Shown here piece by piece: positions 791-22,250 of a DNA stretch of 22,250 nt. Origin of the DNA: a virus. The notes under the pieces are model-generated. The model had not been told where the DNA came from and made no database searches. It saw only the letters and a list, made by a program, of their open reading frames with translations. The DNA lies in IMG/VR virus record IMGVR_UViG_3300044858_005533, positions 1 through 22,250 of that record. One strand, given 5' to 3'. The first letter of the stretch is position 1, and each line of letters starts with the position of its first letter. The position numbers and the translations under genes were made by a program.

Positions 791-1063
791 ATGGCAGATA
801 GCACAAATCTAAAAGTAAATGAGTTGGATTTTGATAAAATCAAAACTAATCTCAGAGACTATCTAAAAGCGCAGGACCAGTTTAGAGATTACAATTTCAG
901 CGGTTCTGGCATCAGTGTTCTTTTGGATATCTTAGCATATAATACTTACTATAATTCATTCTATTTGAATATGGTAGCTGCGGAGTCATTTTTGGCTACT
1001 GCGCAAAAAAGAAATTCAATTATCAATCACGCAAGACTCCTAGGTCTAGAATATCATCCCTAA
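791..1063 (+). CDS. 6: Baseplate wedge subunit gp6, N-terminal fragment (frame broken)
   Basis: The first 90 residues of gp6, starting 2 nt after the gp25 stop. The segment ISVLLDILAYNTYYNSFYLN, then MVAAESFLATAQKRNSI and HARLLG, is the typical gp6 N-terminus of marine T4-like phages. Homologues as I remember them continue with a Tyr-x-Pro-Arg-Ser motif. Here the frame instead reads LEYHP and stops at TAA 1061-1063. The remainder of gp6 follows in the frame one base back. In T4, gp6 dimers form the ring that links baseplate wedges and are essential, so a truly broken copy would not be expected to give viable virions. The fragment alone is far too short to be functional gp6. Confidence 0.85.
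   Translation: MADSTNLKVNELDFDKIKTNLRDYLKAQDQFRDYNFSGSGISVLLDILAYNTYYNSFYLNMVAAESFLATAQKRNSIINHARLLGLEYHP
1031..1047 (+). other. Frameshift junction in gp6, probable 13-nt deletion
   Basis: Before this point gp6 reads in the frame of 791; after it, homology continues in the frame of 1297 (TPRSRISSLIEG, then FTITPIGTPTSI). In gp6 homologues recalled from marine T4-like phages, seven residues separate the conserved His from Pro-Arg-Ser, which is 21 nt. Here only 8 nt (1031-1038) separate CAC 1028-1030 from CCT 1039-1041, so 13 nt are missing. One copy of ACTCCTAGGT is present at 1036-1045. Restoring a second copy spaced by TAT would give L-G-Y-T-P-R-S and repair the frame. Slippage between direct repeats explains this simply; an assembly error or recoding remains possible. 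Confidence 0.6.
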
Positions 1064-5198: not shown

Positions 5199-6491
5199 AT
5201 GCCAGCAATCGTAACAAATAAATTCAGATTTCACAATGCAGTTCAGTTCAAAGAAGCATTTGATGAAGTCGCAAACACAGTTGTATACTTCTATGTCGGC
5301 GGTCCGACTGCGTTTACTGATGATTTGAATCCACCGACGCCAAGTTCAACAACAGCCAATATTGAATTCACTCCATGGACTGACATGATCGGCATGAAGC
5401 GAGTTCAACCTTCGGATGTATCTTTTGTTGTTCCTAGACACAATTGGTCTTCTGGAACAGTCTATACTCAGTTTGACGACAAGCTGACAAATATTTTGAC
5501 AAATAACTTCTTTGTTCTGACAGATGATTATAATGTTTACAAGTGTCTGTTTAACAACAACGGAGTGGCTTCAACTACAAAGCCAACTGGCACAAGTTCA
5601 TCTCCGATCACGACAGCAGATGGATATGTTTGGAAGTTCATGTATAGCGTCACAACAGCAGATGCATTGAAGTTTTTGACTACAAACTATGTACCAGTCA
5701 AAAAATTGACATCAAACGATGGTTCTCCTCAGTGGAGCGTCCAGTCTTCAGCAGTAGACGGTGCGATTCATGTGATCAAAGTCACAGCCGGCGGCTCTGG
5801 ATACACCGGAACACCGACAGTCACAATCACAGGAGATGGCGCTGGTGCCAATGCAACAGCAGTGATCACTGCCAACACAGTGACTGCAATTACAGTCAAC
5901 TCAATTGGAACTGGCTATACAAATGCAACAGTTTCTATCACTGGTGGTTCTGGAAGCAGTGCAGCAGCTACAGCGATACTGTCACCTAAGGGCGGGCATG
6001 GTGCTGATCCAGTAGAAGAGTTGGGTGGTCTATTCGTTCTTGTCAACACACGATTAGACGGCACCGAGTCTTCAACATTCTCAGTTGCTAATCAGTTCAG
6101 AAAGATTGGTCTTGTAAGAGATCCATTTACATTTGGAACATCTACATCAGCACTTGGTTCTGTTTATCGTCAGACATATAGATATACACTAACAGGAACA
6201 ACAGGCACATTCTCTATTGATGAGACTGTGACATCTGGAAGCAACACTGCAACTGTTGTTGAATATGATTCTTCAAATAATTACATATACACTACAGTTC
6301 CTTTGCCGCAGGCGTTTGCAAATACAGCGGCTATTTCAGGCAATTCTTCTGGTGCAGCAGCAACAATAAACGGAATTTCAACTCCAGGCATTCAACCATA
6401 CTCTGGAGAGATACTGTATGTTGAAAACAGATCACCAATTCAAAGAGCGGCAGATCAAATTGAAGATGTCAAACTAATCGTTGAATTCTAA
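5199..6491 (+). CDS. 8: Baseplate wedge subunit gp8
   Basis: A 430-residue gp8 homologue. In T4, gp8 is a dimer in the baseplate wedge that binds gp7 and gp10. The N-terminus MPAIVTNKFRFHNA and the block NNFFVLTDDYNVYKCLFNNN, then TKPTGTSSSPITTADGYVWK, match the gp8 family of marine T4-like phages, as does the C-terminal PYSGEILYVENRSPIQRA, IEDVKLIVEF. An insertion at about residues 195-260 adds two G-x-G-Y beta repeats (AGGSGYTGTPTVTI; IGTGYTNATVSI), the same style as in the gene just upstream. A strong ribosome site, AGGAGA at 5185-5190, fixes the start, and a late promoter motif lies 48 nt upstream. Confidence 0.88.
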   Translation: MPAIVTNKFRFHNAVQFKEAFDEVANTVVYFYVGGPTAFTDDLNPPTPSSTTANIEFTPWTDMIGMKRVQPSDVSFVVPRHNWSSGTVYTQFDDKLTNILTNNFFVLTDDYNVYKCLFNNNGVASTTKPTGTSSSPITTADGYVWKFMYSVTTADALKFLTTNYVPVKKLTSNDGSPQWSVQSSAVDGAIHVIKVTAGGSGYTGTPTVTITGDGAGANATAVITANTVTAITVNSIGTGYTNATVSITGGSGSSAAATAILSPKGGHGADPVEELGGLFVLVNTRLDGTESSTFSVANQFRKIGLVRDPFTFGTSTSALGSVYRQTYRYTLTGTTGTFSIDETVTSGSNTATVVEYDSSNNYIYTTVPLPQAFANTAAISGNSSGAAATINGISTPGIQPYSGEILYVENRSPIQRAADQIEDVKLIVEF

Positions 6492-6511: not shown

Positions 6512-9500
6512 ATGTCAAATCCAGGTGGCGTAAATCTAAATGTAAGCCCTTATTATGATGATTACGATGAGGATAAGAAATACTCTCGTATTCTATTTCG
6601 CCCTGGGCGCGCAGTTCAGGCTAGAGAACTAACACAACTTCAGACAATCTTCCAGAAACAAATTCAGAGATTTGGTAATTACTTCTTCAAAGAGGGTAGT
6701 ATTATTGATGGCTGTGAGCAGGGGCTAGACTTGAATCTGTCATATGCTAAACTTCAGCCAACTTATAATGGAAATCAAATTGATGTAGACAATTTCAATG
6801 GAAAAAATGTAATTGGTTCAGAAACTGGAATTAAAGTAAAAGTTGGATTAGTATCTGATATTGAGGGTAATGATCCAAAGACATTGTTCATTAACTACGC
6901 ATCATCTGGAACGATGATTCTATCTGTAAATGCAGTTCCTTCAACCATAGTTTCTGGAAATACAATATCAACTGCAAATGCATCAGGTAGAATTGAATAT
7001 TGGAATGATTCTCTTTTCAAAATCTATGTTTCAAATATTACTGGTACATTTGTTCCGACAAATGCAACTACAGTAAGTTCAAATGGTTCTACATTGACTG
7101 TTCAAATCAACACAGTTACAGATAAAAGAGCATCAAAAGTATTAGAAGACGATGAAATCATTTTCACTGATGAGGCTTCTCCAGTATATGCAAATACTGC
7201 CATTTTACAGGCTACATCGCATACGGAAAATGATGTAACATATACTAAAGGCTCAAAAGTATCTGTTGGTGATGGCGTTGTATATGTTGCTGATCATTTT
7301 ACAAAGAATACAAATCAAACTATCATTCTAGATAAGTATAAGAATACTCCATCTTACAAAGTTGGCTTTGTTCCTACTAAAACTTTTGTTGATTATATTG
7401 AAGATCCTTCGCTAGTAGATAACGCACAGGGTACTCCAAACTATCAAGCTCCTGGAGCAGATAGATTTAAGATTGATACTGTTCTAACTAAACTTGAGTT
7501 GAATGCTGAAACATCAGAATCTGAGTTTATAACACTGATTGAAGTTGATGGTGGCTCAGTAAAGAAAAGAAAATCATTTGGTCTTGAAAGCAAACTAGAA
7601 GAAGTCATTGCTAAGAGAACATTTGAAGAATCTGGTGACTATACTCTCTCAAATCCAAAAATCAATATTCGTGAACACCTTTTAGCGGATAATAATGCAG
7701 GTAGATATACATCTGCCGAGGGCGGTAATACTAATCTATTGCTTCTGGAAGTTGATCCTTTTGTTGGATATGTAAAAGGTTTCAGAAATGAATTCATCAC
7801 TAGACAGAGTATTCAACTAAACAAAGGTTTAGATACACAGTACATCCAACAGAATAAAATTCAATTAGCATATGGAAATTATGTTGAAGTAAATGATGTA
7901 ATTGGTCCTTGGGACTTGATGGAAAGTACAAAAATTGATTTGTATGATACTGCTTTTAATGCAATTGCAGCTGGTGGATTTTCACTTGCAACATCTACAG
8001 CAGGAAAAACTAAAATCGGTGAAGCAAGAGTTCGCTCTATTGAGTATGTGAGTGGAAGCCCAGGCACAGTAAACGCAACATATAGAATCTATCTTTTCGA
8101 TATCGTAATGAATTCTGGCAAATACTTCAGCGATGTCAGAGCACTATATGATGCAGGTACTATTCAAAGAATTGCAGATACTGTGCTTGACTCATCTGGT
8201 AGGGCAATTCTTCAAGAATCTACATACTCTGTTGGGCTATTTGAGTTTCCATATGAAGCAGTCAAAACAATTCGTGACTCTAATGGCAACATCGTAAGTG
8301 GCTACACATTCAAAAAAGAGTTTCAAGTAACATTTACTAATGGAGTTGCTACTGTAAGTTCTGGCGATAACTCTGAAAACTTTGTTGGTTCTGGTGTCCT
8401 TTCTTCATCACAAAAGAACATCAACTACACTGTAGTTGTAAACAATAGCAACACTAACGTAGAAACAACATCGTTGACTGGTACAGTGACCGCTGCAAAT
8501 AATTCTACATCCGTAACGGGCGCTGGAACAAATTTCATCTCACAATTCAACGTGGGTGACTACATCAAAGCCTCTGGTCAAACAAGACGAATCTCTACAA
8601 TCACTAGTGCTACGGCATTGGTTGTTGAAACAGCATTTTCTCCTGCTGTAACCACAGCGGCAATGACAAAAGTTATTCCAGCTGGAGCATATGTTGACTT
8701 GTCTGGCAATGGTGGCTCTGCACTCAGTAGAGTTGTCACAGTGTCTTCACCGAGCACAATTCAAATTGACATCAAAGAACCGGCAACATTCACTGCCAGT
8801 TTGATTGCGACGATGAACAAGACTTCTGCAAGAGAGATGCAGAAACTTCTTCAGCCGAATCAGCAAGTCTTCATTCAAGCTAACACTCATCCAAGTGGTT
8901 TGAGTGGTCCTTACTCTCTGGGTAAGTCTGATGTGTATAAGATTCGTGGCATTTATCAGGCTGCAAACTTTGTTAGTGTGCCAACAACAGCAAACACTGA
9001 TGTCACTGCTAACTACATTTTTGACAACGGGCAAAGAGATTCAACATATGAACACGGAAGAATCACTCCAAAAGTTGGCATAGTTCCAACAGGAAGACTT
9101 CTTGTCGTTTTTGACTTCTTCAGGCACGACACAACGCAAGGTGTTGGATATATGTCTGTTGATTCATATCCAGTTGACGATGTTGGCACAAGCAACACTA
9201 CAATAGATACCGCTGAGATTCCATCATATGTCAGTTCATCTACAGGTACGAAATATGAACTTAGAAATTCTATTGACTTGCGCATTAGAAAACTTGATGA
9301 TAACGCAAACACAATCAATCCAGTAGATCCTGGCACATATCAGATTCCTATTGGTGGATTGCACAACACGAAACCAAGTTCAGATTTTGATTCTGATGTC
9401 ATCATATACAAGGGAAGAATTTCTAGACTGTTCTTGAACGAAAATGGTGAGTTTGGTATTGTTGATGGTAGCCCAGGCTATCCTAAACCACAAGTTCCGC

Positions 9501-12500
9501 CTTCTGTACCAGGAACACTGGACCTAGCAATCATCAATGTGCATCCGTATCCTTCTTCTCCTGTTGATATTGTCATTGAACCACAGAAGAATCGTAGATA
9601 CACAATGAAAGATATTGGTAAAATTGAAGATCGGATCAATAGACTTGAGTACTACACATCGTTGAATCTTCTAGAGAAGCAAGCAGCAGATTTGTCTATT
9701 CTTGATGAGAATGGTCTTGATAGATTCAAGAATGGTCTTCTTGTTGATTCATTTACAGGATACAACATAGCCGATGTAAACAATGAATATCTGAAGGTGT
9801 CTATAGACACTAAGGAAAAATATGTAACAGCACAAGCGTCTGTCGGTGAAATTCCATTGAAGTATACAACAACAGGATCTTCTGGAGTGACAAGAACACC
9901 CGGAAATAAACTCATGTTGAACTACACACATGAAGTGTTCTCAGAGAATCCATATGCTTCATCTGCATTGAATCTATCTCAAGAATTGACATATGACTGG
10001 ACTGGAGTCATGTCAATTCTTCCATCTACAGATAACTGGGTGGATACCACAAACAATCCTTTGAAGAATCTAGTTGTCGTTGATCTTGAGGGTAACGCAG
10101 ACAATTGGAGAACAATCGCCAATGCGTGGGACACAGAACTAAACTCATGGGAATCTAGATGGGTTGGAACATCAGTTCAGCAAGAAGTTGGCAGCACAAA
10201 ATCAACCGTCGCTAGAGTTGTTCAGCAAACTCAGTTGGGCGAGTTGATCGGTTCTAACATTACAGTTGGAACAACAGAATCACAAACACCAGCTAGAGTT
10301 GTAGATGTTTCAGTCAATCACTTCATGAGAAGCAGAGACTTCATCTTTGATGTAAGTGGAGTAAAATCCAATTCTAGACTCTATGCTTTCTTTGATGGAA
10401 TAGATGTAACTGCAAATTGTACTCAAATCACGATCAACAGTGGATATACAACTCGCGATGTGTTTGATCTTCTAGATGCAAATGGAACAGTTTCATCAAA
10501 CACTACAGTTTACACAGTAAAATCTACTGGAACGATGTTCGCTGATGGTGAAGGTAAACTTGTTGGAATCTTTACTCTTCCTGCGCAAAAGTTTAGTGTG
10601 GGTCAGAGAGAATTCAAGTTGATTGATGATGCTCAGAATAGAGACTCAGTGGCAACAACAAGCACAAAGAACTCAATTGTTGCTCAGGGTCTTTCTGTGA
10701 TTTCTGCGTCTAATCATGTTAACACAAGACCAATCAATGTGAATTTTACATCTGCACTTGAAAAGAGCAACATCAGTCGCCAGATCAAAAGCCCAACAAA
10801 CACATTTGTTCGTGATCCGTTGTCACAGAGTTTCTTTATTGACGAAGTGAACTATGCTTATGGCGTATTTGTGTCTAAGATTGATGTATACTTCAAGACA
10901 AAATCGGCAAATAGCTCTACGAAAGTATACATGCAGATTCGCGAGATGGAGAATGGATTCCCCACTCGCAAAGCAATTGGCGACTCTACAACATTTGTCC
11001 GATCAGGAAACATCGCAGTCAGCGCAGATGGAACTACAGCAACAACATTCACATTTGATAGCCCAATCTATCTATTGCCGGGAATTGACTACTGCTTCTC
11101 TCTAATTCCGGAGGGCAATGTCGATGACTTTGAAATTTGGACTGCTGAATTGGGTGCACTTGATGTGTCTAGTGGAGATTTGCAGAAGAGAATAGAGAAA
11201 CAACCAGCAGCCGGTATTCTATTCACATCTTCAAATGACTTCTCTTGGTCTGTCCGTCAAAATCAAGATTTGAAGTATAAGATTTATGTAGCCAAGTTCG
11301 CTCCAAGTGCATCTGGTGTTGTTGTTCTTGAGAACAAACCTATTGCATCTAGCAGAACATACTCATCGTTTGTTCCAAACATTGCTGCGTTGACTCCAGA
11401 TAAGACTGGTGTAGTGTTCAATGCAAGAGTTTCTGACTCATCTGGTCTATTGACAAACTATTTCAATGTCAACAACATTGAAAAGGTAAACTTGCCCAAT
11501 AGAAAGAGTCTTCTGACATCTGCGCAAGAAGTTTCAGCCGGTGTCAAATCCATGAATGTTCGCGGAACAATGAGCACGCAGAATGAGTATATCACTCCTT
11601 TTATTGATTTGGAGAGACTCCAATCTGTGACTCTTGACTATTCTATAAACAACACAACATCTTTAACTTTAGATGGAACTGCAACTGTCACTGCGGGATC
11701 AAACACTGTTGTCGGATCTAGCACACTGTTTACATCCCAAGTTCTTGCTGGCGAATACATCTCGTTTGGAGGAGTTTATCGGCAAGTGACAGCCGTGACA
11801 AATAACACAAGTTTGATTGTGGGAACTGCATTCTCAGCAAATGCTTCTGCTGTTTTGATAACCGCAGATAACGAAGAAAATCCTAAGGGACCGTATGTAT
11901 CTGGAGCAAGATACATCAGTCGCCGAGTTGAATTGGCTGATGGATTTGAAGCAAATGACTTGACTGTTTATCTAGATGTAAATAGACCAGCCGGAACTGC
12001 TATCAAAGTCTACTATAAAGTTCTTCATGAAACTGATAGTGATTCATTTGATGACAAGTTCTATAGAGAGATGTCACTTGATGGCAGCGCAACATTCACT
12101 TCAGATTCATCAGCATACACTGAAGAGAAGTATGTGGTGCCAACATCTGTAAAGAGTGGCGGCACCCTTCTGTTGAACGGAACTGTGGCTGTCAGCAATG
12201 TGTCAACTACAGTAACTGGTACATCAACACGATTCCTTGAAGAGTTGAAAATTGGCGACACAATCACTGTTGGCACAACATCAAAAATAGTTTCTACAGT
12301 TGCAAACAATATTTCCATGACTGTTGACAGTGCATTCAGCACAGTTGCATCAGATCAATTTGCATTCAAGCAATTGAATAATTCGTTGACATACACAACT
12401 CCAGACGGGCGTGTATATTCTGGTTATAAATACTTCGCCATCAAGATTGTATTCTTGTCAGATAATAATGCAATTGCACCAAGAGTGAAGAGACTTCGCA

Positions 12501-12517
12501 CAATTTCGTTGACATAA
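6512..12517 (+). CDS. Giant DUF4815 baseplate/tail structural protein
   Basis: A 2001-residue protein. Residues about 15-50 (YDDYDEDKKYSRILFRPGRA, then VQARELTQLQ) are the diagnostic start of DUF4815 proteins, which lie after gp8 in marine T4-like phages. They are virion proteins, probably of the outer baseplate or fibre attachment, a role that gp9/gp10 fill in T4; that parallel is inference. Further in, MKDIGKIEDRINRLEYYTSL (near residue 1030) is also typical. Three copies of a beta module (GT-V...GTxF...GDxI, then a V-x-x-V-x-x-x-T-x-L-x-V strand) begin near residues 653, 1716 and 1883. Only three cysteines were found. TAGGAAAA before ATG 6512 supports the start. Its stop codon overlaps the next gene's ATG. 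Confidence 0.85.
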   Translation: MSNPGGVNLNVSPYYDDYDEDKKYSRILFRPGRAVQARELTQLQTIFQKQIQRFGNYFFKEGSIIDGCEQGLDLNLSYAKLQPTYNGNQIDVDNFNGKNVIGSETGIKVKVGLVSDIEGNDPKTLFINYASSGTMILSVNAVPSTIVSGNTISTANASGRIEYWNDSLFKIYVSNITGTFVPTNATTVSSNGSTLTVQINTVTDKRASKVLEDDEIIFTDEASPVYANTAILQATSHTENDVTYTKGSKVSVGDGVVYVADHFTKNTNQTIILDKYKNTPSYKVGFVPTKTFVDYIEDPSLVDNAQGTPNYQAPGADRFKIDTVLTKLELNAETSESEFITLIEVDGGSVKKRKSFGLESKLEEVIAKRTFEESGDYTLSNPKINIREHLLADNNAGRYTSAEGGNTNLLLLEVDPFVGYVKGFRNEFITRQSIQLNKGLDTQYIQQNKIQLAYGNYVEVNDVIGPWDLMESTKIDLYDTAFNAIAAGGFSLATSTAGKTKIGEARVRSIEYVSGSPGTVNATYRIYLFDIVMNSGKYFSDVRALYDAGTIQRIADTVLDSSGRAILQESTYSVGLFEFPYEAVKTIRDSNGNIVSGYTFKKEFQVTFTNGVATVSSGDNSENFVGSGVLSSSQKNINYTVVVNNSNTNVETTSLTGTVTAANNSTSVTGAGTNFISQFNVGDYIKASGQTRRISTITSATALVVETAFSPAVTTAAMTKVIPAGAYVDLSGNGGSALSRVVTVSSPSTIQIDIKEPATFTASLIATMNKTSAREMQKLLQPNQQVFIQANTHPSGLSGPYSLGKSDVYKIRGIYQAANFVSVPTTANTDVTANYIFDNGQRDSTYEHGRITPKVGIVPTGRLLVVFDFFRHDTTQGVGYMSVDSYPVDDVGTSNTTIDTAEIPSYVSSSTGTKYELRNSIDLRIRKLDDNANTINPVDPGTYQIPIGGLHNTKPSSDFDSDVIIYKGRISRLFLNENGEFGIVDGSPGYPKPQVPPSVPGTLDLAIINVHPYPSSPVDIVIEPQKNRRYTMKDIGKIEDRINRLEYYTSLNLLEKQAADLSILDENGLDRFKNGLLVDSFTGYNIADVNNEYLKVSIDTKEKYVTAQASVGEIPLKYTTTGSSGVTRTPGNKLMLNYTHEVFSENPYASSALNLSQELTYDWTGVMSILPSTDNWVDTTNNPLKNLVVVDLEGNADNWRTIANAWDTELNSWESRWVGTSVQQEVGSTKSTVARVVQQTQLGELIGSNITVGTTESQTPARVVDVSVNHFMRSRDFIFDVSGVKSNSRLYAFFDGIDVTANCTQITINSGYTTRDVFDLLDANGTVSSNTTVYTVKSTGTMFADGEGKLVGIFTLPAQKFSVGQREFKLIDDAQNRDSVATTSTKNSIVAQGLSVISASNHVNTRPINVNFTSALEKSNISRQIKSPTNTFVRDPLSQSFFIDEVNYAYGVFVSKIDVYFKTKSANSSTKVYMQIREMENGFPTRKAIGDSTTFVRSGNIAVSADGTTATTFTFDSPIYLLPGIDYCFSLIPEGNVDDFEIWTAELGALDVSSGDLQKRIEKQPAAGILFTSSNDFSWSVRQNQDLKYKIYVAKFAPSASGVVVLENKPIASSRTYSSFVPNIAALTPDKTGVVFNARVSDSSGLLTNYFNVNNIEKVNLPNRKSLLTSAQEVSAGVKSMNVRGTMSTQNEYITPFIDLERLQSVTLDYSINNTTSLTLDGTATVTAGSNTVVGSSTLFTSQVLAGEYISFGGVYRQVTAVTNNTSLIVGTAFSANASAVLITADNEENPKGPYVSGARYISRRVELADGFEANDLTVYLDVNRPAGTAIKVYYKVLHETDSDSFDDKFYREMSLDGSATFTSDSSAYTEEKYVVPTSVKSGGTLLLNGTVAVSNVSTTVTGTSTRFLEELKIGDTITVGTTSKIVSTVANNISMTVDSAFSTVASDQFAFKQLNNSLTYTTPDGRVYSGYKYFAIKIVFLSDNNAIAPRVKRLRTISLT
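8472..8680 (+). repeat. Beta-sandwich-like module, copy 1 in DUF4815 protein
   Basis: Encodes a module of about 65-70 residues with the pattern GTVTAANNSTSVTGAGTNF, GDYIKASG, TALVVETAF. The same pattern recurs at about 11660-11870 and 12161-12370 in this gene, and near 4932-5140 at the end of the gp7-position gene. The copies are divergent at DNA level, so they are old protein-domain repeats rather than recent duplications. Confidence 0.6.
11660..11870 (+). repeat. Beta-sandwich-like module, copy 2 in DUF4815 protein
   Basis: Encodes DGTATVTAGSNTVVGSSTLF, then AGEYISFGGVYRQV and TSLIVGTAFSA. It matches copy 1 in spacing: a GT-V strand, then GS/GT-x-F about 14 residues later, an (A)G-E/D-x-I turn, and a final T-S-L-I-V strand. 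Confidence 0.6.
12161..12370 (+). repeat. Beta-sandwich-like module, copy 3 in DUF4815 protein
   Basis: Encodes NGTVAVSNVSTTVTGTSTRF, then IGDTITVGTTSKIV and ISMTVDSAFS. This is the same module as copies 1 and 2, placed just before the C-terminal end (GYKYFAIKIVF, RVKRLRTISLT). Confidence 0.6.
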
Positions 12518-12786
12518 TGATGCCGACACCGATGATGAATAATAAAGAAATAATAAAACTGAAAGAAGTGCATAATGGATTCTCTGAACGGGATATTCAC
12601 TCTAAGGCAATTTTGAGTAGAGATAATGATTCTCTTTTGAAGTATAAGATACAGAAGAATAGAATGAATTCTATTTCTTCAAGTGCAAAAGAAATGGAAT
12701 CACTGAAGTCAGAATTCATTTCTATCAAAGAAGAATTAAATGAAATAAGAAACTTACTTCTAAGAATTACAGCAGGTAAACAATAA
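12517..12786 (+). CDS. Small coiled-coil protein, function unknown
   Basis: An 89-residue, lysine- and serine-rich protein. The C-terminal third (MESLKSEFISIKEELNEIRN, then LLLRI) has heptad spacing of Leu/Ile/Phe and should form a coiled coil. No cysteine and no membrane segment are seen. Its ATG overlaps the TAA of the DUF4815 gene, and its own TAA overlaps the next ATG, so translation is probably coupled on both sides. A short coiled-coil protein at this place could be a connector or chaperone between the baseplate and the fibre encoded next. This is inference from position; I recognise no named family. GC content is low: 17 of 60 bases at 12601-12660. Confidence 0.75.
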   Translation: MMPTPMMNNKEIIKLKEVHNGFSERDIHSKAILSRDNDSLLKYKIQKNRMNSISSSAKEMESLKSEFISIKEELNEIRNLLLRITAGKQ

Positions 12787-14405
12787 TGCCAATTCAAACA
12801 GTTGCCATTTCAAACACATTTAATGAACTGCGTGTCGCTACGAATTCTGTTATTGGTGAAGTCAATAATCTAAGTAATGGCGTCGGTAATATCGTTATTG
12901 ATAGTATTACCGCAAACACATATGTTGGAGTTTCTTCTAATCTCAACATTTCTGGAAATACAGGCTCTGATGTAGTGAGTTTGACATCCGAAACTCTTAG
13001 AGTTGTTGGTACAAATGGCATCACAACAAATGTAAATTCTAGTTCAAATACAATAAGTGTTAATCTAGGATCAAGTCTATCACTCAGTACTCTAGCACTT
13101 ACAGGCGCCACTCCAAATACTTTTGATATAACAGGAGGCATTAGACTCAATGGCACAACAACAGGATATGTTGGTCTTCAAGTAGCGACATCTGGAACAA
13201 ATCAAACATATACACTTCCTGCTTCTGACGGGCTGAGCGGTCAAGTTCTACAGACAAACGGAGTCGGATCTCTTTCATGGGTGAATCAATCTGCCGGTGG
13301 TGGTGGAGGTGGTGGAGGAAGTGGAACATCCACATCAAGAACCGCATTCACTGCAACCGGTGGGCAGACAACGTTCAGTCTGACTTATACAGTTGGGCAG
13401 ATTGATGTCTACATGAACGGTTCTAAGTTGGTAGCTAATAATGACTTCACTGCGACAAATGGAACTTCTATTGTTCTTGCAACAGGCGCAGTCGCTGGCG
13501 ATGTCATTGATGCTGTCACTTATTCAAGTCAATGGATTTCTTCTGGATCAAATCTTTACTACGCAGACGGAAACATCGGTGTAGGAACAACAAATCCATC
13601 GGCGAGAATTCATGCTGCTAGCGCAAACACTGCGTTTGCTGTAGGAACAATTAGACTTGACGGCGCAAACGCCACAGGCGTAATTGATGCACCCACAACA
13701 ATCAATGCAGTTACGGGAGGTGGCGCAGGCAACGGCGGAAGCCAGTTGTACTTCCAAACACGCGAAGAGAACGGCTCATTGACTGAGAGACTCCGTATCA
13801 ATCAGTTGGGTAGAGTTGGTATTGGTACAGTCACACCCAACACAGAACTTGATGTAATTGGCACAGTCACTGCTACAACATTCTCTGGTTCTGGTGCATC
13901 TCTAACTTCAATAAATGCTTCAAATGTTTCTTCTGGAACTTTAGATAACGCTAGAACAACAGCAGCATCAGCCAATGGTGCATCAACGATTGTAACTAGA
14001 GATGCAGCAGGTAACTTTGTTGCAAATACAATTTCTTTGACAAACTTTGCAGTTGGTGTTGCGAGCCCAGCAGCAAACACAAAAGTGGATATTTTAGGTT
14101 CTCAAGCGGGCAACATCGTAGCAGTTGCTGCTCTAAACATTGATTGCTCAACTGGCAACTTCTTCACTAAAACAATCGCAGCAGACAGCACATTCACATT
14201 CAGTAATGTTCCTGCATCTAGAGCATATGGTTTCACACTTGAACTCACTCACACTAGCGGCAATGTGACATGGCCAGGCACGGTGAGATGGCCAGCAAAC
14301 ACTGCGCCAACACTGACAACAAGCAAAACTCATTTGTTTATGTTTGTCACAGATGATAGCGGATCAAGATGGCGCGGCTCTTCTCTTCTGAATTATGATA
14401 ACTGA
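12786..14405 (+). CDS. Tail fibre protein
   Basis: A 539-residue fibre-like protein. The N-terminal 60 residues (TVAISNTFNELRVATNSVIG) look like an attachment domain. A run of glycines (about residues 171-180) forms a flexible linker. Next come a beta block (TFSLTYTVGQIDVYMNGSKL) and two fibre repeats of the type GNIGVGTTNPSARIHA (near residue 262) and GRVGIGTVTPNTELDVIG (near 342), common in phage fibres of the gp36/gp37 and S74-peptidase style. No S74 autoprotease signature was seen at the end. The C-terminal domain (FTFSNVPASRAYGFTLELTH, then VTWPGTVRWP) is a beta-rich tip seen in many phage fibres. It probably binds the host surface directly or carries another adhesin. Confidence 0.82.
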   Translation: MPIQTVAISNTFNELRVATNSVIGEVNNLSNGVGNIVIDSITANTYVGVSSNLNISGNTGSDVVSLTSETLRVVGTNGITTNVNSSSNTISVNLGSSLSLSTLALTGATPNTFDITGGIRLNGTTTGYVGLQVATSGTNQTYTLPASDGLSGQVLQTNGVGSLSWVNQSAGGGGGGGGSGTSTSRTAFTATGGQTTFSLTYTVGQIDVYMNGSKLVANNDFTATNGTSIVLATGAVAGDVIDAVTYSSQWISSGSNLYYADGNIGVGTTNPSARIHAASANTAFAVGTIRLDGANATGVIDAPTTINAVTGGGAGNGGSQLYFQTREENGSLTERLRINQLGRVGIGTVTPNTELDVIGTVTATTFSGSGASLTSINASNVSSGTLDNARTTAASANGASTIVTRDAAGNFVANTISLTNFAVGVASPAANTKVDILGSQAGNIVAVAALNIDCSTGNFFTKTIAADSTFTFSNVPASRAYGFTLELTHTSGNVTWPGTVRWPANTAPTLTTSKTHLFMFVTDDSGSRWRGSSLLNYDN

Positions 14406-16397: not shown

Positions 16398-16991
16398 ATG
16401 TATATCAATACAGAAACAAATCAATATCCACTTTCCGCGTCTGATATTAGATCGGAAAATCCAAACACAAGTTTTCCTTCTCCTTTTGTTCCTTCATCTA
16501 AATATCAGTGGGTGTTTCCTACACCACAACCAACTTTTGATCCAGTGATTGAAGTTGCGATTGAAACAACACCCCAGTTCACATCAAAAGGAGTCTGGGA
16601 GCAAAGATGGGAAGTTGCGCCAAAGTTCACTGAGTACACCGACGATGATGGCGTGACATACACTGTAGCAGAACAAGAAGCAGCCGCTATTGCAGCAGAC
16701 ACATCAGCCAAACTTGAAGCACTCCAGAGAACCATTGTAGAAAGAACTCAAGCAAGACTTGATGCATTTGCTCTGACAAGAAACTACTCTAGCATTCTCT
16801 CTGCGACTACATACGTTGATAGTGCAATAACTAAGTTTGCCATAGAAGGCGCATACGCAAAGCAAACTAGAGATTCTACATGGGCTACACTCTATGAAAT
16901 TCTAGCAGAAGTTCAAGCTGGAACAAGACCAGTTCCTAACTCATATGAAGAGATTGAGCCAGAATTGCCAGTTCTTCAATGGCAGAATTGA
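16398..16991 (+). CDS. Probable tail fibre assembly / fibre-associated protein
   Basis: A 197-residue protein. The N-terminus (MYINTETNQYPLSASDIRSE, NPNTSFPSPFVP) and the WEQRWEV motif at about residues 68-74 occur in small proteins encoded next to fibre genes and related to tail fibre assembly (Tfa) or DUF4376-type proteins. A helical middle (AEQEAAAIAADTSAKLEALQ, then RTIVERTQARLDAFAL) probably forms a coiled coil. The C-terminus has YEEIEPELPVLQWQ. AAGGGAAAA before ATG 16398 supports the start. The likely role is folding or joining of the neighbouring fibre, but some relatives may be virion components. No cysteine was seen. Confidence 0.65.
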   Translation: MYINTETNQYPLSASDIRSENPNTSFPSPFVPSSKYQWVFPTPQPTFDPVIEVAIETTPQFTSKGVWEQRWEVAPKFTEYTDDDGVTYTVAEQEAAAIAADTSAKLEALQRTIVERTQARLDAFALTRNYSSILSATTYVDSAITKFAIEGAYAKQTRDSTWATLYEILAEVQAGTRPVPNSYEEIEPELPVLQWQN

Positions 16992-17026: not shown

Positions 17027-17434
17027 ATGACAATTGCAAGAGACTTAGCAAACGTTGCATCGTTGATGGCGTCATCAAGTGCCAATGTTGTCTTTGATAA
17101 CACTGTCATTTTGAGTGGCGGTGTTTCTAATGGTGTTATTTTTCTCGACGACTCAAAAACTGCAAGAACGACATCATCTTTCGTTTATGATTCTGCAAAT
17201 ACCAGAATAGGTATCAACACATCTACACCTAGAGCATCAATTGATATAAATACGACAGATGGTATGATTCCTCCTTCTGGAACAACGGCACAAAGACCCA
17301 ATGTTCCTATTGAAGGATTACTCAGATGGAACACAGAAACTAAGACAACAGAACAATATACAGGTACAAAATGGACACCTATTGCGGGTGTTGATAAAAA
17401 TGCAATATCATTCTTCTTTGCGTCTAGTTTTTAA
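17027..17434 (+). CDS. Short fibre-like virion protein
   Basis: A 135-residue protein. The middle has one fibre repeat, DSANTRIGINTSTPRASIDI (about residues 55-74), of the same type as in the 539-aa fibre. The segment AQRPNVPIEGLLRWNTETKT, then TEQYTGTKWTPI (about 90-121), is a common C-terminal unit of phage fibres and neck fibres in which a short trimeric beta structure forms around the W-T motif. The start is supported by AGAGGA 9 nt upstream. It may be a short whisker, or a shaft segment that associates with the next products. No cysteine is present. Confidence 0.7.
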   Translation: MTIARDLANVASLMASSSANVVFDNTVILSGGVSNGVIFLDDSKTARTTSSFVYDSANTRIGINTSTPRASIDINTTDGMIPPSGTTAQRPNVPIEGLLRWNTETKTTEQYTGTKWTPIAGVDKNAISFFFASSF

Positions 17435-17453: not shown

Positions 17454-17777
17454 ATGCCTTCTGGAAGATTAGCAAAATCAAATCCTGCAGCGGAAACAAT
17501 TACCACCGTTTACACTTCACCCGCGAATACATATGTTGTTTGTACCGCTGCGATGCTAAATTATGGCGATTCAACAACAACATTCAGGTTGTCTATACTA
17601 GAAAGTGCTAATAGTACACCTTCAGTATCAGACTTCATAGAGTATGACACCGTTATTACATCAAAAAATGTCATAGAACGATCTGGTATTGTAATTGGCA
17701 ATGGGCAAAAAATAGCCGTGTCGTCACCAACATCATCATTGATTGTCAATGTGTTTGGAATTGAAACTACACAATAA
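17454..17777 (+). CDS. Small beta-rich virion protein (107 aa)
   Basis: A 107-residue protein beginning MPSGRLAKSNPAAETITTVY. The pattern (MPxGRLA, then T-x-L/V-Y-T-x-P, YGDSTTTFRLSI, DFIEYDTVITSKNVIERSGI, and SSLIVNVFGIE at the end) is a recurring small phage protein that looks like a single beta-sandwich domain. Relatives sit among tail and fibre genes, so it probably decorates a fibre or the tail. TAGGAAAAA before ATG 17454 supports the start. Its one cysteine (VVCTAA) is unremarkable. No enzyme motif is seen. Which particle part it belongs to is unknown. Confidence 0.7.
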   Translation: MPSGRLAKSNPAAETITTVYTSPANTYVVCTAAMLNYGDSTTTFRLSILESANSTPSVSDFIEYDTVITSKNVIERSGIVIGNGQKIAVSSPTSSLIVNVFGIETTQ

Positions 17778-17801
17778 AGAATTCAATAGGAGATAAAGAA
17801 C

Positions 17802-18386
17802 ATGGAAACAATTTTAGTTTACGAAAAAAATACAGGAATTATTCAAGGTGCTGTTGGTTTGCCGTCACTTGATTATTTTCACAAAAGTAGAATGAAGCCT
17901 GTTATGAATACTGTAAATCTATTAGATAATAATGGCGTTGCGGTTGGCACGGCTGAAGTTCCATTGATTGATCCTGAGTTCGGTCAAGTATTTATTGATG
18001 ATCCATTACCAGAGCATCTTGGAATCATATATGTTTCTACTAAATCTGAGAGTGATCTTCTCTCTGAAGAGATTGAAGATTTTACTTTTTCAGAAAAAAA
18101 TATTGAAGTGCTCAATTCTAATAATAGCATAACAATTACAGTCGCAAAAACTACACCAAAACTTAGAATTTTGAGAAAAATAAATGATGAAGGAAAAGTT
18201 GAATTGCAACCTGTAATGCGTAAAAGAATTCTATCCGAACATACAAATGACGCAATTGCAGATTTGTCACTAGGCGATTATGTAATTGACGACACCGATT
18301 TTTCCGCATTTTATACTGAAATTTCTAATAAATATAAGATTGAAGTTAGTCAATCTGGTAAAAAAACTTTAGTTCTAAGAGGATAA
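17802..18386 (+). CDS. Unknown 194-aa protein coupled to the Cys-rich gene
   Basis: I do not recognise this protein. It has 194 residues, is rich in Asp, Glu, Lys and Ile, contains no cysteine, and lacks a signal peptide or membrane segment. The N-terminus METILVYEKNTGIIQGAVGL resembles small proteins encoded before phage fibres. The middle (EEIEDFTFSEKNIEVLNSNN) is acidic and the C-terminus (YKIEVSQSGKKTLVLRG) is probably a beta hairpin. AGGAG at 17788-17792 supports ATG 17802. Its TAA is one base from the ATG of the giant cysteine-rich gene, whose ribosome site (AGAGGA, 18378-18383) lies inside this gene. Coupled translation suggests a partner or chaperone for that protein; this is an inference from context only. 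Confidence 0.7.
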   Translation: METILVYEKNTGIIQGAVGLPSLDYFHKSRMKPVMNTVNLLDNNGVAVGTAEVPLIDPEFGQVFIDDPLPEHLGIIYVSTKSESDLLSEEIEDFTFSEKNIEVLNSNNSITITVAKTTPKLRILRKINDEGKVELQPVMRKRILSEHTNDAIADLSLGDYVIDDTDFSAFYTEISNKYKIEVSQSGKKTLVLRG

Positions 18387-18387
18387 T

Positions 18388-21300
18388 ATGGGCCGTTATA
18401 TAGGTGTTCCTGAATCTCTGATAACGGAGATTGAAAATATTGTTCCAGTCGCAAGACGATTCAATAATCGGTGTCTATACACAACTCCCGGCACATATAC
18501 ATTCACTGTACCTGTTGGTGTAACTTGTATTAATGCTGTCGCGGTAGGTCCTGGTGGCACTCAATGCTCTATTTTAGAGTGCATGATTACATGCGGAACT
18601 ATTGCTTGTTTATCAACATCTATGTGTGTCATAAAAAAGTTTCACGATGACGCTGGATCTACATGCATGTTATCATCTGTTGCGCGAGATCCTGTTGAAA
18701 ATATATGCACATGTGCATTTGAAGTCTGTAGGTACCTGTGTTCTACTACATTAAAGGACCGTTGGTCAATATATATTGACCAAGGCACCTCCGGTTGCTA
18801 CATGTGCGCAGGAGGAAAAACAGATTTCACTAATCAGACGATGAAGTTTTCTTATTTTCCGTCAGGTCCTGGTGGAGGATATACAGAAAAAGCTGCAAAT
18901 ACTGTAGCTGGATGCACATATACCGTAATTGTTGGGCAGAATTGCTCTGTGGGTGGATTCTCATGTGTAAGTGGTCAGAACGTAAGCATCTGCGCGACAG
19001 GACCCATCATGGTAAGTTGCGCTGGTTTGGTAGATGCAAATAATTCTACATTTTATAATATTAGCGGCACATGGCGGACACCAGATGCATGGAATTACAT
19101 GGACACATGCAGCATTTCCACAAGCTGCAGCGGCACCACGCCGTGGTGCTGTTTTGCGTGTTTTAGTAAATGTGGCAGTCGGGGCGAACTCGCATATTGT
19201 ATAGAATCTCGCTGGTGTGCATGTGTAGCCCAGGGGCAAGGCTTTGGTGGAGATATTAATCGTACTGGAGGATTTTGTTGCCTATCATACACAACGCAAT
19301 TATTAACATCTAATCCTTGCTATCCCTGTGGAGTTCTTACAGGATGTTGCTCAAGTGTCCTTGGGACAGGATCTATTTTTGCATGCGGCGCCGCCGCATG
19401 CACTACTACAGGAGGATATACAACAAACAATTGTTGTGGTGCCTCGGTATTTTGTTGCATACTTTGCACACCTTTTGTTAGCTCTTGCGGCACGGGTAGT
19501 ATAGGAACATTTATTTTATCCATGTGCATGTATAAGCGCATTACGCAATACTGCACACCTCTGGACGTCATCAGCGGCGCCTGCACAGCCTGCATATTCC
19601 AAAATAATTGCGCGTATTTCACTTTCTCACAATCATCAAGAGAAACAGGAAATACTATTTCATGCATAACTAATTTTAACTTCAATTCTCCTGGAAATTT
19701 TAATCCTTATTGTAGCATCAAAGCAGGATGCACTGGTTGCATATCTACGACTTTGTGTCACTGCACATGTATGCTTGTATGTGATATTACTTGTCCTGGC
19801 AGTGTGTCCGGCGGCAGTGCTTCTAGACAAACGATTTGCGGTGGATGGCACACATTCATTTATGATTGGAAGGGTATAACTCCTGAAACTTCTGGTGGAT
19901 GGTGTGGTAATCCATACTACTGTATGAATTGTGTATTGGTTGGTAATACATGTAATCGTTTCAAATTTGGAGGAAGTTCTGCAGGTAATTTTTATGGTAA
20001 TGGCGTTTCTGCCCTTAACGATTCTAATGTATATACTTTGTGCTGCAATAGAAATTTTGGACACTGTGACACAACTCCAGCAACAGTCGCTACAGTTTGT
20101 AATATGAATGGGCTTGCGAATATTACGTGTATGGCAGCGCAGGTGACGACACCAGAAGCAACTACCATGTGCCTCGGGCCCTGTGCTTTTATGCCATTCT
20201 TGTACAACATATCTACTTGGTGGCGCCACGACACCGGCAACTGCTGTACTTATTCACTAGGTACACCATCACTAAGTTGTCAATGCAAAACGCCAATTCT
20301 TTATGGTATTCCTGTATATGAATGTTCAACATCGTGTAATTGTGATATGTATTCTTTCCCCACAACAGGAACATGTACTGTTCTGGACATGTTTAGGGTA
20401 CATCCATTGCCTGGAATTTCTAGACATTCATCTATTTCAAATCACAAAAGCAATGCATATCATGATATGTTTATTAATTGGGCTGGTAATGTTATGTTCA
20501 ATAACTTGCAAGCTGGTGCGGGGTGTACATGTTTTGCAACAGCTTGCACTTGCTGCAATAGATTTTCGCCTTATTACCTCAATGCAGGCTTCAACGGACT
20601 GTGCTTTGCACCATGTGGCGAGTTCAGGATTGTGCCTGCAAAAACTTGCATGAAATATTATTCAACAGTTGCTTGCGTTCCTTTAGATTGCTGTGGTTCA
20701 TGTGGTCCAAATCCACTTGTAACTGTTGTGCCACTTACAAGTGGCACTAGAGATTTTGTGTCATATAATTTCTTTTGCAATTTGTGCACAACAGTCATGG
20801 TGCAAACTGCGGGATATAATTGCAGATATTATGGGCTTAATTGTTACTGGCCATGTGCATTGTGTTATGATTTCTGTAATACTACATGCAGAGTCAACAA
20901 TTTGAATCCTTTATTGAATTTGTACGATTACATTTGCTCAAACCCAGAAGATCGTTCAACAGGATCTACACCAACATGCGTTGGCATTAATACTCCATTC
21001 TGTCATTTGTTGACATTTGGTTCCATGATACCATTGAATACTAACAGCATTCTAACTAATTTTTATTTCCCTCAAGCAACGACGGTGTGTTGTGTTTATA
21101 AATCTTCAGACAAAATTACTGTAAATGATGCTCTTTATAATGCGCAATACGTACACAATTTTGGATATTGTTTGATTAACACTCGGGTTAACCCAGCCGT
21201 ATGGCAGGGCGGCGGGTGCGGTGTAGCCTGTCACACCTGGAATAGGATTGTTGCACTATCTCAAATTTGCTTTGACCAGTGTAAAGTATCTGGTATATGT

Positions 21301-22250
21301 AATTGCAGTTTGGCTGCATGCTGTTATTATGCTCAGGGTGGCGCTGGTATTGGAACAGCAGGCATTTGGGGAGAAGGTACTGTTTCATGTAATCTAACTT
21401 CTTCGGGTGGTGGTAACATTAAGTGCCTATCTCACTGCTTAAATCTTCAAGCGACATATTGCAATTGCTCTATGGGTTGCTGTTGGTTGCAGAATTTACC
21501 TTGTGCAGCTGGCTGGGGAATGAATTCTACCCTAGCGCAAATAACAATATGTGACACATTAAATTGTGGTTCAGGTGCAATTATTTCACCAAATTGGACA
21601 GCATATCAATGCTGCGCCGGTGTATTATGTGTACCCGCTCCATGCGGCAATGCAACTATACCCAATCAAGCGGGTGTTCCTGGCACTGGGCATCTTGCAT
21701 CAATTACTGTGTTGTGTGGCGGTATTAACTACAGTACTTCAACAAATACTTGTGCGCAATTAACTCCTTGTATGTGTGTGGCGTCAACTTATAGTAGTAC
21801 ACCTTGGCGATCAGAAATTGACCGCTTGCTGACCACTCTACCCTGCTGTAACGCGCCGGTCTGGTGTAATAACGGGTGTCCATTCACATTTACTGCTGCT
21901 GGACCGCTGTGTGGTTTACCAGTAATTACTCCTGCAATGTGCGTGTGTGTTGTCACACCATTTTCTAATTATTCCAATGTGGTTGCAACATATGCAGAAG
22001 GCTCTGGCGGTGGATCAAAGACAGGAATTCCGTCTTGTGCCAAGTATTCATCAATCACCGAATCTTCATCAATTGTGTCTGTATCGCCAGCTAGAGGTGG
22101 TAGAGGCAATGAAGCTCCATATGATCCGTATTACTTTTCGTATCCTGGAATTAGCGCAAGAATTAATACACCTAAATCTCCAGCGACATACGTTGGAGAT
22201 AATGTGTCAGGTTGCTCATGGTTTGATACAAATCAGATTTTAGGATCAGG
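18388..22250 (+). CDS. Giant cysteine-rich fibre-like protein (right end missing)
   Basis: The frame is open from ATG 18388 to the window edge: 1287 full codons with no stop. The start is set by AGAGGA inside the preceding gene. The N-terminus lacks a signal peptide. Residues 34-57 (PGTYTFTVPVGVT then AVAVGPGG) and 160-186 (GPGGGYTEKAANTV, CTYTVIVGQN) match the framing motifs of glycine-rich phage fibre tips. I count 137 Cys (10.6%): 135 lie before residue 1192 and only two in the last 96 residues, where Gly/Ser/Pro-rich fibre-like sequence resumes (PARGGRG). There are 14 Cys-Cys pairs and about ten Cys-x-Cys. In the first 360 codons TGT (20) and TGC (22) are used about equally. No catalytic motif was recognised. 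It is probably a host-binding adhesin, disulfide- or metal-stabilised; that role is inference. Confidence 0.85.
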   Translation, partial: MGRYIGVPESLITEIENIVPVARRFNNRCLYTTPGTYTFTVPVGVTCINAVAVGPGGTQCSILECMITCGTIACLSTSMCVIKKFHDDAGSTCMLSSVARDPVENICTCAFEVCRYLCSTTLKDRWSIYIDQGTSGCYMCAGGKTDFTNQTMKFSYFPSGPGGGYTEKAANTVAGCTYTVIVGQNCSVGGFSCVSGQNVSICATGPIMVSCAGLVDANNSTFYNISGTWRTPDAWNYMDTCSISTSCSGTTPWCCFACFSKCGSRGELAYCIESRWCACVAQGQGFGGDINRTGGFCCLSYTTQLLTSNPCYPCGVLTGCCSSVLGTGSIFACGAAACTTTGGYTTNNCCGASVFCCILCTPFVSSCGTGSIGTFILSMCMYKRITQYCTPLDVISGACTACIFQNNCAYFTFSQSSRETGNTISCITNFNFNSPGNFNPYCSIKAGCTGCISTTLCHCTCMLVCDITCPGSVSGGSASRQTICGGWHTFIYDWKGITPETSGGWCGNPYYCMNCVLVGNTCNRFKFGGSSAGNFYGNGVSALNDSNVYTLCCNRNFGHCDTTPATVATVCNMNGLANITCMAAQVTTPEATTMCLGPCAFMPFLYNISTWWRHDTGNCCTYSLGTPSLSCQCKTPILYGIPVYECSTSCNCDMYSFPTTGTCTVLDMFRVHPLPGISRHSSISNHKSNAYHDMFINWAGNVMFNNLQAGAGCTCFATACTCCNRFSPYYLNAGFNGLCFAPCGEFRIVPAKTCMKYYSTVACVPLDCCGSCGPNPLVTVVPLTSGTRDFVSYNFFCNLCTTVMVQTAGYNCRYYGLNCYWPCALCYDFCNTTCRVNNLNPLLNLYDYICSNPEDRSTGSTPTCVGINTPFCHLLTFGSMIPLNTNSILTNFYFPQATTVCCVYKSSDKITVNDALYNAQYVHNFGYCLINTRVNPAVWQGGGCGVACHTWNRIVALSQICFDQCKVSGICNCSLAACCYYAQGGAGIGTAGIWGEGTVSCNLTSSGGGNIKCLSHCLNLQATYCNCSMGCCWLQNLPCAAGWGMNSTLAQITICDTLNCGSGAIISPNWTAYQCCAGVLCVPAPCGNATIPNQAGVPGTGHLASITVLCGGINYSTSTNTCAQLTPCMCVASTYSSTPWRSEIDRLLTTLPCCNAPVWCNNGCPFTFTAAGPLCGLPVITPAMCVCVVTPFSNYSNVVATYAEGSGGGSKTGIPSCAKYSSITESSSIVSVSPARGGRGNEAPYDPYYFSYPGISARINTPKSPATYVGDNVSGCSWFDTNQILGS
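18705..18718. repeat. 14-bp perfect palindrome in Cys-rich gene
   Basis: ATGCACATGTGCAT equals its own reverse complement. It encodes part of I-C-T-C-A-F. It arises because TGC pairs with GCA and ACA with TGT, all of which are common codons in this gene. A 10-bp palindrome, ACATGCATGT, lies just upstream at 18661-18670. Confidence 0.8.
18762..18783. repeat. 22-bp perfect palindrome in Cys-rich gene
   Basis: The half-site TTGGTCAATAT is followed at once by its exact reverse complement ATATTGACCAA. It lies inside the coding frame (residues R-W-S-I-Y-I-D-Q) and contains no cysteine codon, so the codon bias of this gene does not explain it. It could form a cruciform, an mRNA hairpin with an ATAT loop, or a dimeric protein-binding site. 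Its function is unknown. Confidence 0.9.
19129..19153. repeat. Inverted repeat with GCC loop
   Basis: Arms GCACCAC (19133-19139) and GTGGTGC (19143-19149) flank a GCC loop. In RNA the stem extends to 11 pairs with two G-U pairs, covering 19129-19153. It is inside the Cys-rich coding frame. Confidence 0.7.
19380..19402. repeat. GC-rich hairpin, 10-bp arms and GCC loop
   Basis: Arms TGCATGCGGC (19380-19389) and GCCGCATGCA (19393-19402) are perfectly complementary around a 3-nt GCC loop. This is a very stable hairpin in an AT-rich genome. It encodes A-C-G-A-A-A-C. It is not followed by a T-run and lies mid-gene, so it is not a conventional terminator. Confidence 0.85.
20713..20747. repeat. Nested inverted repeats (two alternative stems)
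   Basis: Two stems share bases. CCACTTGTAA (20713-20722) pairs with TTACAAGTGG (20735-20744) across 12 nt. GTGCCACTT (20728-20736) also pairs with AAGTGGCAC (20739-20747) across 2 nt. The two stems are mutually exclusive. They lie inside the Cys-rich gene in a stretch without cysteine codons. Confidence 0.8.

Follow-up and report, generated by a model that had tools for sequence, protein, structure and literature searches.

How does a T4-like phage come to encode a fibre-like protein in which more than one residue in ten is cysteine? The question is raised by the gene at 18388-22248 (+ strand) of IMG/VR record IMGVR_UViG_3300044858_005533, which was analysed over its whole length of 22,250 bp ("the window"). 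Phages assemble inside a reducing cytoplasm, and their fibre proteins as a rule contain little cysteine. We propose, tentatively and at a little under an even chance, that the gene specifies the receptor-binding adhesin of a T4-like phage, built as a Gly-rich scaffold with Cys-packed loops that are locked by disulfides after lysis. The adhesin identity is well supported by position and sequence comparison, while presence in the virion, receptor binding, and the formation and timing of the disulfides are what we infer from it.

The cysteine-rich gene

The gene opens with an ATG one base past the stop codon of the preceding gene, behind a Shine-Dalgarno-like AGAGGATA, and is free of stops up to the contig end; its 3' part lies beyond the end of the record. 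The remaining five frames of the same stretch contain 46-88 stops. It sits in the variable stretch from VrlC to gp14 that has been termed the host recognition cluster (HRC; PMC7029224), on the same strand as the fibre genes and with VrlC and fibres upstream. The regions of the gene used in the comparisons below, in which contigs of relatives carry L numbers, are:

18388..22250, + strand, adhesin-like protein of 1287 aa, Gly-rich and with 10.6% cysteine, truncated on the 3' side where the contig stops (from the ORF, its composition, and homology to the L121/L149 type)
18388..18558, + strand, residues 1-57, N-terminal module MGRY...TYTFTVPVGVTCINAVAVGPGG, common to Gly-rich fibre proteins and L121
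18862..18939, + strand, residues 159-184, Gly-rich segment GPGGGYTEKAANTVAGCTYTVIVGQ, matching GAGAGYADASFPVTPGQAYTVCVGS of L121
19972..20010, + strand, residues 529-541, GSSAGNFYGNGVS, identical to GASAGNYYGNGLS of L121 at 10/13 positions
21958..22248, + strand, residues 1191-1287, few cysteines, with Gly-rich segments; the scaffold domain perhaps ends here

A first-pass annotation had reported an open frame with 137 cysteines in 1287 codons (10.6%). Our recount returned the same figures, and codon use is ordinary, with 72 TGT and 65 TGC codons and a third-position GC content (GC3) of 0.32, most neighbours lying at 0.18-0.33. Cysteine density is 8-15 per 100 aa over residues 1-1190 and the residue is rare in the last ~90; the AT skew flips within the gene. 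No internal repeats above shuffles were found, and no hydrophobic N-terminal signal was seen in the window protein. The remaining proteins of the window contain 0-0.9% cysteine. Across the compared loci, the median is 0.34% for 1231 open reading frames (ORFs) of 200 or more amino acids; 11 of these exceed 7%, and all 11 are HRC proteins of the Cys-rich kind. Among the 190 ORFs of 1000 or more amino acids, five giants of a second sequence type (type b, described below) reach 9.8-10.6%, and the next highest value, outside the Cys-rich family in the related phages compared, is 1.6%. The high cysteine count is genuine, far beyond background and no artefact.

Relatives of the window protein

Searched at full length against IMG/VR, INPHARED, PDB, Pfam and PHROGs, the window protein had no matches, and its first 57 residues retrieved only Cys-poor, Gly-rich phage fibres. 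A Gly-rich-plus-Cys DNA pattern run against IMG/VR gave chance matches only. When a clade-specific VrlC alignment was used as the search query, about 40 close contigs were recovered, and several of these encode relatives that we term MGRY-type. Their sizes and cysteine contents are 631 aa and 11.7% (L121), 363 aa and 10.5% (L131), 356 aa and 9.2% (L134), and 317 and 318 aa with 8.1-8.4% (L144 and L149, respectively); that of L154 is cut and has 10.1%. The giant of the window apart, MGRY-type proteins are thus Gly-rich, 317-631 aa long and 8-12% cysteine. Their N termini read MGRF, MGRY, MSRY or MARY, Gly-rich segments are present, and the C terminus of complete members is GxG[LF]V[VI]V[YE]Y, a part that the truncated window gene does not reach.

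Compared with shuffles, the first 200 residues of the window protein score z = 11.7 with L121 and 7.9 with L149, and more weakly with L131, L154 and L134. BLAST of the first 50 residues gave E = 8e-4, to which the pairing of GSSAGNFYGNGVS with GASAGNYYGNGLS is added. Furthermore, the window and 6/6 relatives share a gene for a 107-aa protein with matches to PHROG tail fiber families, placed one or two genes before the Cys-rich one, at 32-43% identity. Because of the N-terminal alignment and this shared partner gene, the window protein is most naturally taken as a giant, divergent MGRY-type member, a Gly-rich scaffold apparently opened by Cys-rich insertions. L149 and L144 themselves match PHROG 863 and 6202 ("tail fiber"). 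It is the position in the HRC, the Gly-rich module and these PHROG tail-fibre matches of the homologues that support the fibre or adhesin identity suggested by the first-pass annotation.

Directly downstream of the Cys-rich gene, L149 encodes two mutually similar small proteins (17462-17773 and 17777-18139) with ~5-6% cysteine and weak PHROG 2636 tail-fibre matches, and the same pair is present in L144. In GTDB genome contigs, a search for the window type returned Gly-module matches only. Among isolate phages, relatives of the Cys-rich L121, L149 and L099 proteins were not found, and marginal matches were obtained only for L018.

A second type of giant at the same locus

A VrlC search of IMG/VR yielded 80 relatives, the nearest of which, L018, has Cys-rich ORFs at the same locus. 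The type-b gene is complete in L099 and has relatives in L100-L103, encoding proteins of 1,373-1,397 aa with 136-148 cysteines. These giants are like the window protein in locus, clade, size class and cysteine content but differ from it in that sequence homology is undetectable: homology of the two was rejected at an hhalign probability of 0.2 and Smith-Waterman z values of -1.4 to 1.0. Type b has no match in Pfam or PHROGs, and none of its relatives were found in GTDB genome contigs. A protein of ~225 aa is encoded directly upstream of the type-b giant (L099:9275-9949, +), with a Cys-rich C-terminal part and 5-6% cysteine overall; the gene is also present in L100, L101 and L103 (partial), so that a further gene of the cluster shares the cysteine habit.

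Selection on cysteine

The conservation of cysteine was analysed in type b and in the L149/L144 pair, the window protein lacking a close relative for a position-by-position test. In type b, cysteine has the highest pairwise conservation of any residue type (0.74, followed by Trp at 0.73 and Gly at 0.70, with Ser at 0.51), exceeds other residues in 31/36 windows, and occupies 72 alignment columns in 5/5 sequences. Between L149 and L144, 26/27 cysteines are kept, compared with 232/290 other residues (Fisher p 0.038). At the DNA level, ~28-36% of the conserved type-b cysteines show a TGT/TGC difference, with dN/dS ~0.3-0.4, and L149/L144 have dN 0.14 and dS 0.96 (dN/dS 0.14). Codon switching and dN/dS therefore show that in these relatives it is cysteine as an amino acid, not the DNA, that is under selection. 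Where type-b cysteines are not conserved, Ser, Asn, Thr, Ala or Gly mostly stands in their place, and a mild enrichment of CC is seen in type b only.

These results bear out the first-pass view that the composition is under selection. The family with conserved cysteine positions that it named as support is seen, in type b and in L149/L144. Homologues with a broken frame and other residues in place of cysteine, by which an artefact would have been recognised, were not seen; at this locus, independent contigs encode Cys-rich relatives that are intact.

Distribution and exchange

HRC genes with >7% cysteine were found in no VrlC clade but that of the window; 113 VrlC relatives at a greater distance (L020-L097, L158-L192) yielded none. 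On the VrlC tree, in which the window is a long branch and contigs ending inside the HRC may wrongly count as negative, the 11 Cys-positive rows require 6 changes, compared with a shuffled mean of 10.2; that is, Cys-rich genes appear to have been gained or lost repeatedly. Their distribution is patchy, as if the HRC were swapped between lineages as a block. L144 and L149 are 66% identical in VrlC DNA and, after a sharp step, 82.6% identical over the DNA that runs from the fibre end across the Cys-rich gene towards the neck, as transfer of the HRC in one block would produce.

Other genes of these clusters may be mentioned here. At the same locus, L133 encodes a fibre of NTTG...NNFFGxxAG repeats (8306-9724, +) with 4.2% cysteine, varying from repeat to repeat, and a similar repeat protein with 3.6% cysteine is found in L040. 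A GT9-like protein and a carbamoyltransferase are encoded in the Cys-positive clusters of L099 (14704-17413), L121 (17854-20595) and L149 (18178-20916); perhaps this pair is used for surface-sugar modification.

Proposed function and alternatives

As in other Gly-rich fibre adhesins, the Gly-rich scaffold would bear long variable loops, which here would be packed with cysteine. The protein would be synthesised in the reduced state in the cytoplasm; on lysis it would be exposed to oxygen, and its cysteines would pair into many disulfides. These would hold in place the large loops that touch the receptor, which diverge fast and otherwise have hardly any folded core. We favour disulfide formation after lysis because cysteine is conserved like a structural residue and without the spacing of metal sites. 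In a broader form of the proposal, one T4-like clade would carry two unrelated protein types at one locus, each a dense-Cys adhesin whose folding is off in the cytoplasm and turned on at lysis, with maturation following release. This is possible, though we lean against it.

Several observations weigh against the proposal. The long middle and loops of the window protein align to no relative, and the reading as an MGRY-type member applies to the anchors that do align. CxxC and CxC are not enriched (11 and 12 copies in the window protein, at or below shuffles), and cysteine spacing is not fixed but near random. Local co-variation of cysteine gain and loss is absent (z = -0.04); with the unfixed spacing, the sequences therefore give no positive sign of disulfide pairing. 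The cysteine number is odd in some members (145, 27, 33). AlphaFold2 gave no usable model, with pLDDT 31.8 for L149 (6 rows) and 28.8 for residues 1-762 of L099 (5 rows).

What else could so many cysteines do? They might bind zinc, iron or copper taken from the host cytoplasm, making the protein a metal-thiolate adhesin, and the number of conserved cysteines and assembly in a reducing compartment would suit this. Metal has a precedent in phage fibres, in the HxH iron sites of T4 gp37 and Alteromonas phage R22Y (PMC11705849), of which this would be the thiol counterpart. Both would be repeated side-chain chemistries able to bind metal, but the HxH fibres rely on a small number of His-based sites. 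In the window protein there are only 14 His and no HxH, CxC and CxxC stand no higher than in shuffles, and the cysteines are spread over the full length without clustering, all of which makes metal binding rather unlikely. Alternatively, cysteine may serve as a small, mildly hydrophobic loop residue that stays free or makes thiol contacts with the receptor, as its replacement by mostly Ser, Asn, Thr, Ala and Gly and its near-random spacing would allow. Free thiols in oxic water are a liability, however, and 72 invariant columns and top conservation exceed what a filler role would lead one to expect; we consider this reduced-state adhesin unlikely.

The odd cysteine numbers would leave thiols for links between chains, and in relatives several small Cys-rich proteins are encoded beside the large one. 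Bonds could thus connect fibres with each other, with particles or with host-surface thiols, as a cross-linked sheath or covalent anchor. Internal bonds explain the conservation of cysteine within single proteins equally well, and such an intermolecular network seems improbable to us. More improbable yet is a secreted or cytoplasmic protein that merely lies in the fibre cluster. The HRCs of related phages do contain non-structural genes (glycosyltransferases, carbamoyltransferases), but the Gly-rich fibre module, the PHROG tail-fibre matches of homologues, the fibre-type partner genes and the lack of a hydrophobic N-terminal signal speak for a virion component. A misread frame, chimeric contig or sequencing error might be suspected in a gene that runs off a metagenomic contig end and has a reversed AT skew; 1287 open codons with normal GC3, and Cys-rich relatives at the same locus on independent contigs under purifying selection, leave this next to no credence. 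The adhesin locked by disulfides after lysis is thus the reading that we retain, at the tentative level given at the outset.

Comparison with known systems

The HRC fibres of pelagimyophages and T4-like phages (HTVC008M, Mosig, Melnitz; PMC7029224) occupy the same site between VrlC and the neck, on the same strand and with the same neighbours, and are hypervariable. They differ in composition: HRC ORFs of 250 or more amino acids in the isolates compared have at most ~3% cysteine, with fibres at ~0-1%, whereas the window type has 8-12%. Gly_rich_2 proteins (PF21722; for example L019/G006:52119-52772) share with the window type an N-terminal TYTFTVPxGVT...VGxGG module and Gly-rich segments. All Cys-rich members tested fall below the curated cut-off of 24.3 bits, the window protein scoring 13.1 bits (positions 1-26) and L121, L149 and L144 14.4-18.8, and much of the Gly-rich core is replaced or interrupted by Cys-rich stretches; in L149 and L144 the sub-threshold match covers most of the profile.

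Tail-fibre gp38 of the T2 type is built as a polyglycine-II sandwich from which variable loops project to touch the receptor (PMC12892980). The window protein would work much like such tip adhesins in outline (S16, PP01), in which Gly-rich motifs alternate with hypervariable loops, but it has no Pfam gp38 match, is much longer and is Cys-rich. A metallothionein-like or zinc-ribbon-like identity was considered and rejected, since CxC and CxxC spacing is not enriched. No description of a Cys-rich phage fibre was found in the open papers searched, a scope that leaves aside subscription papers and preprints. HRC adhesins and Gly-rich fibre tips are known, but an adhesin family with 8-12% cysteine was not found in Pfam, PHROGs, PDB, INPHARED or those open papers, in agreement with the first impression that no described fibre family has this feature.

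Genome context

The window carries T4-like baseplate genes (gp6/J-like, gp7-like, gp8 and VrlC) followed by the fibre region. The order gp8, VrlC, small gene, fibres is also found in HTVC008M, Mosig, Melnitz, Ochrobactrum phage OC and Caulobacter phage Cr30. The right border of the HRC, formed by neck genes, lies beyond the window and is seen in relatives. The genes from gp8 to the Cys-rich gene are:

5199..6491, + strand, baseplate wedge gp8
6512..12517, + strand, 2001-aa VrlC baseplate protein, bordering the HRC on its left
12517..12786, + strand, 89-aa protein, conserved directly 3' of VrlC, start of the HRC
12786..14405, + strand, tail fibre protein, 539 aa
14421..16388, + strand, fibre/virion protein, 655 aa, DUF7483 (PF24299)
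16398..16991, + strand, 197-aa protein, C-terminal part matching, at 52% identity over 79 aa, the gene directly downstream of the L099 type-b giant; possibly a role in fibre assembly
17027..17434, + strand, 135-aa protein, PHROG 1417
17454..17777, + strand, 107-aa fibre-related protein, conserved partner of the Cys-rich gene
17802..18386, + strand, 194-aa protein with no cysteine, directly upstream of the Cys-rich gene

By identity, the closest isolate match of the 539-aa fibre is the C-terminal domain of a Limnohabitans phage protein; the marine origin assumed in the first-pass annotation is not established. The DUF7483 gene has a GC content of 0.47-0.51 and a GC3 of 0.54, compared with ~0.3 in its neighbours, and is on that account likely a recent import. 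A search for relatives of the 194-aa protein found none. The gp6-like baseplate gene is split in the window (791-1063 and 1297-2598) and is a single ORF of ~605-622 aa in relatives, indicating either a real break or an assembly error. No tRNA-Cys gene accompanies the cluster in the genome pieces examined.

Significance

That selection keeps the cysteines suggests that a group of uncultured T4-like phages has an attachment protein of an unusual kind, cross-linked or binding metal and seemingly unstudied, in the cluster that determines its choice of bacteria. It raises a testable question, namely whether a virion protein may mature by oxidation after release, and the members of ~320 residues are small enough for expression and structure solution. 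Interchangeable adhesins with 8-12% cysteine, in two sequence types of no detectable kinship, point to a common chemical solution for building receptor-binding loops that vary, with a possible link to the shift in redox conditions at lysis.

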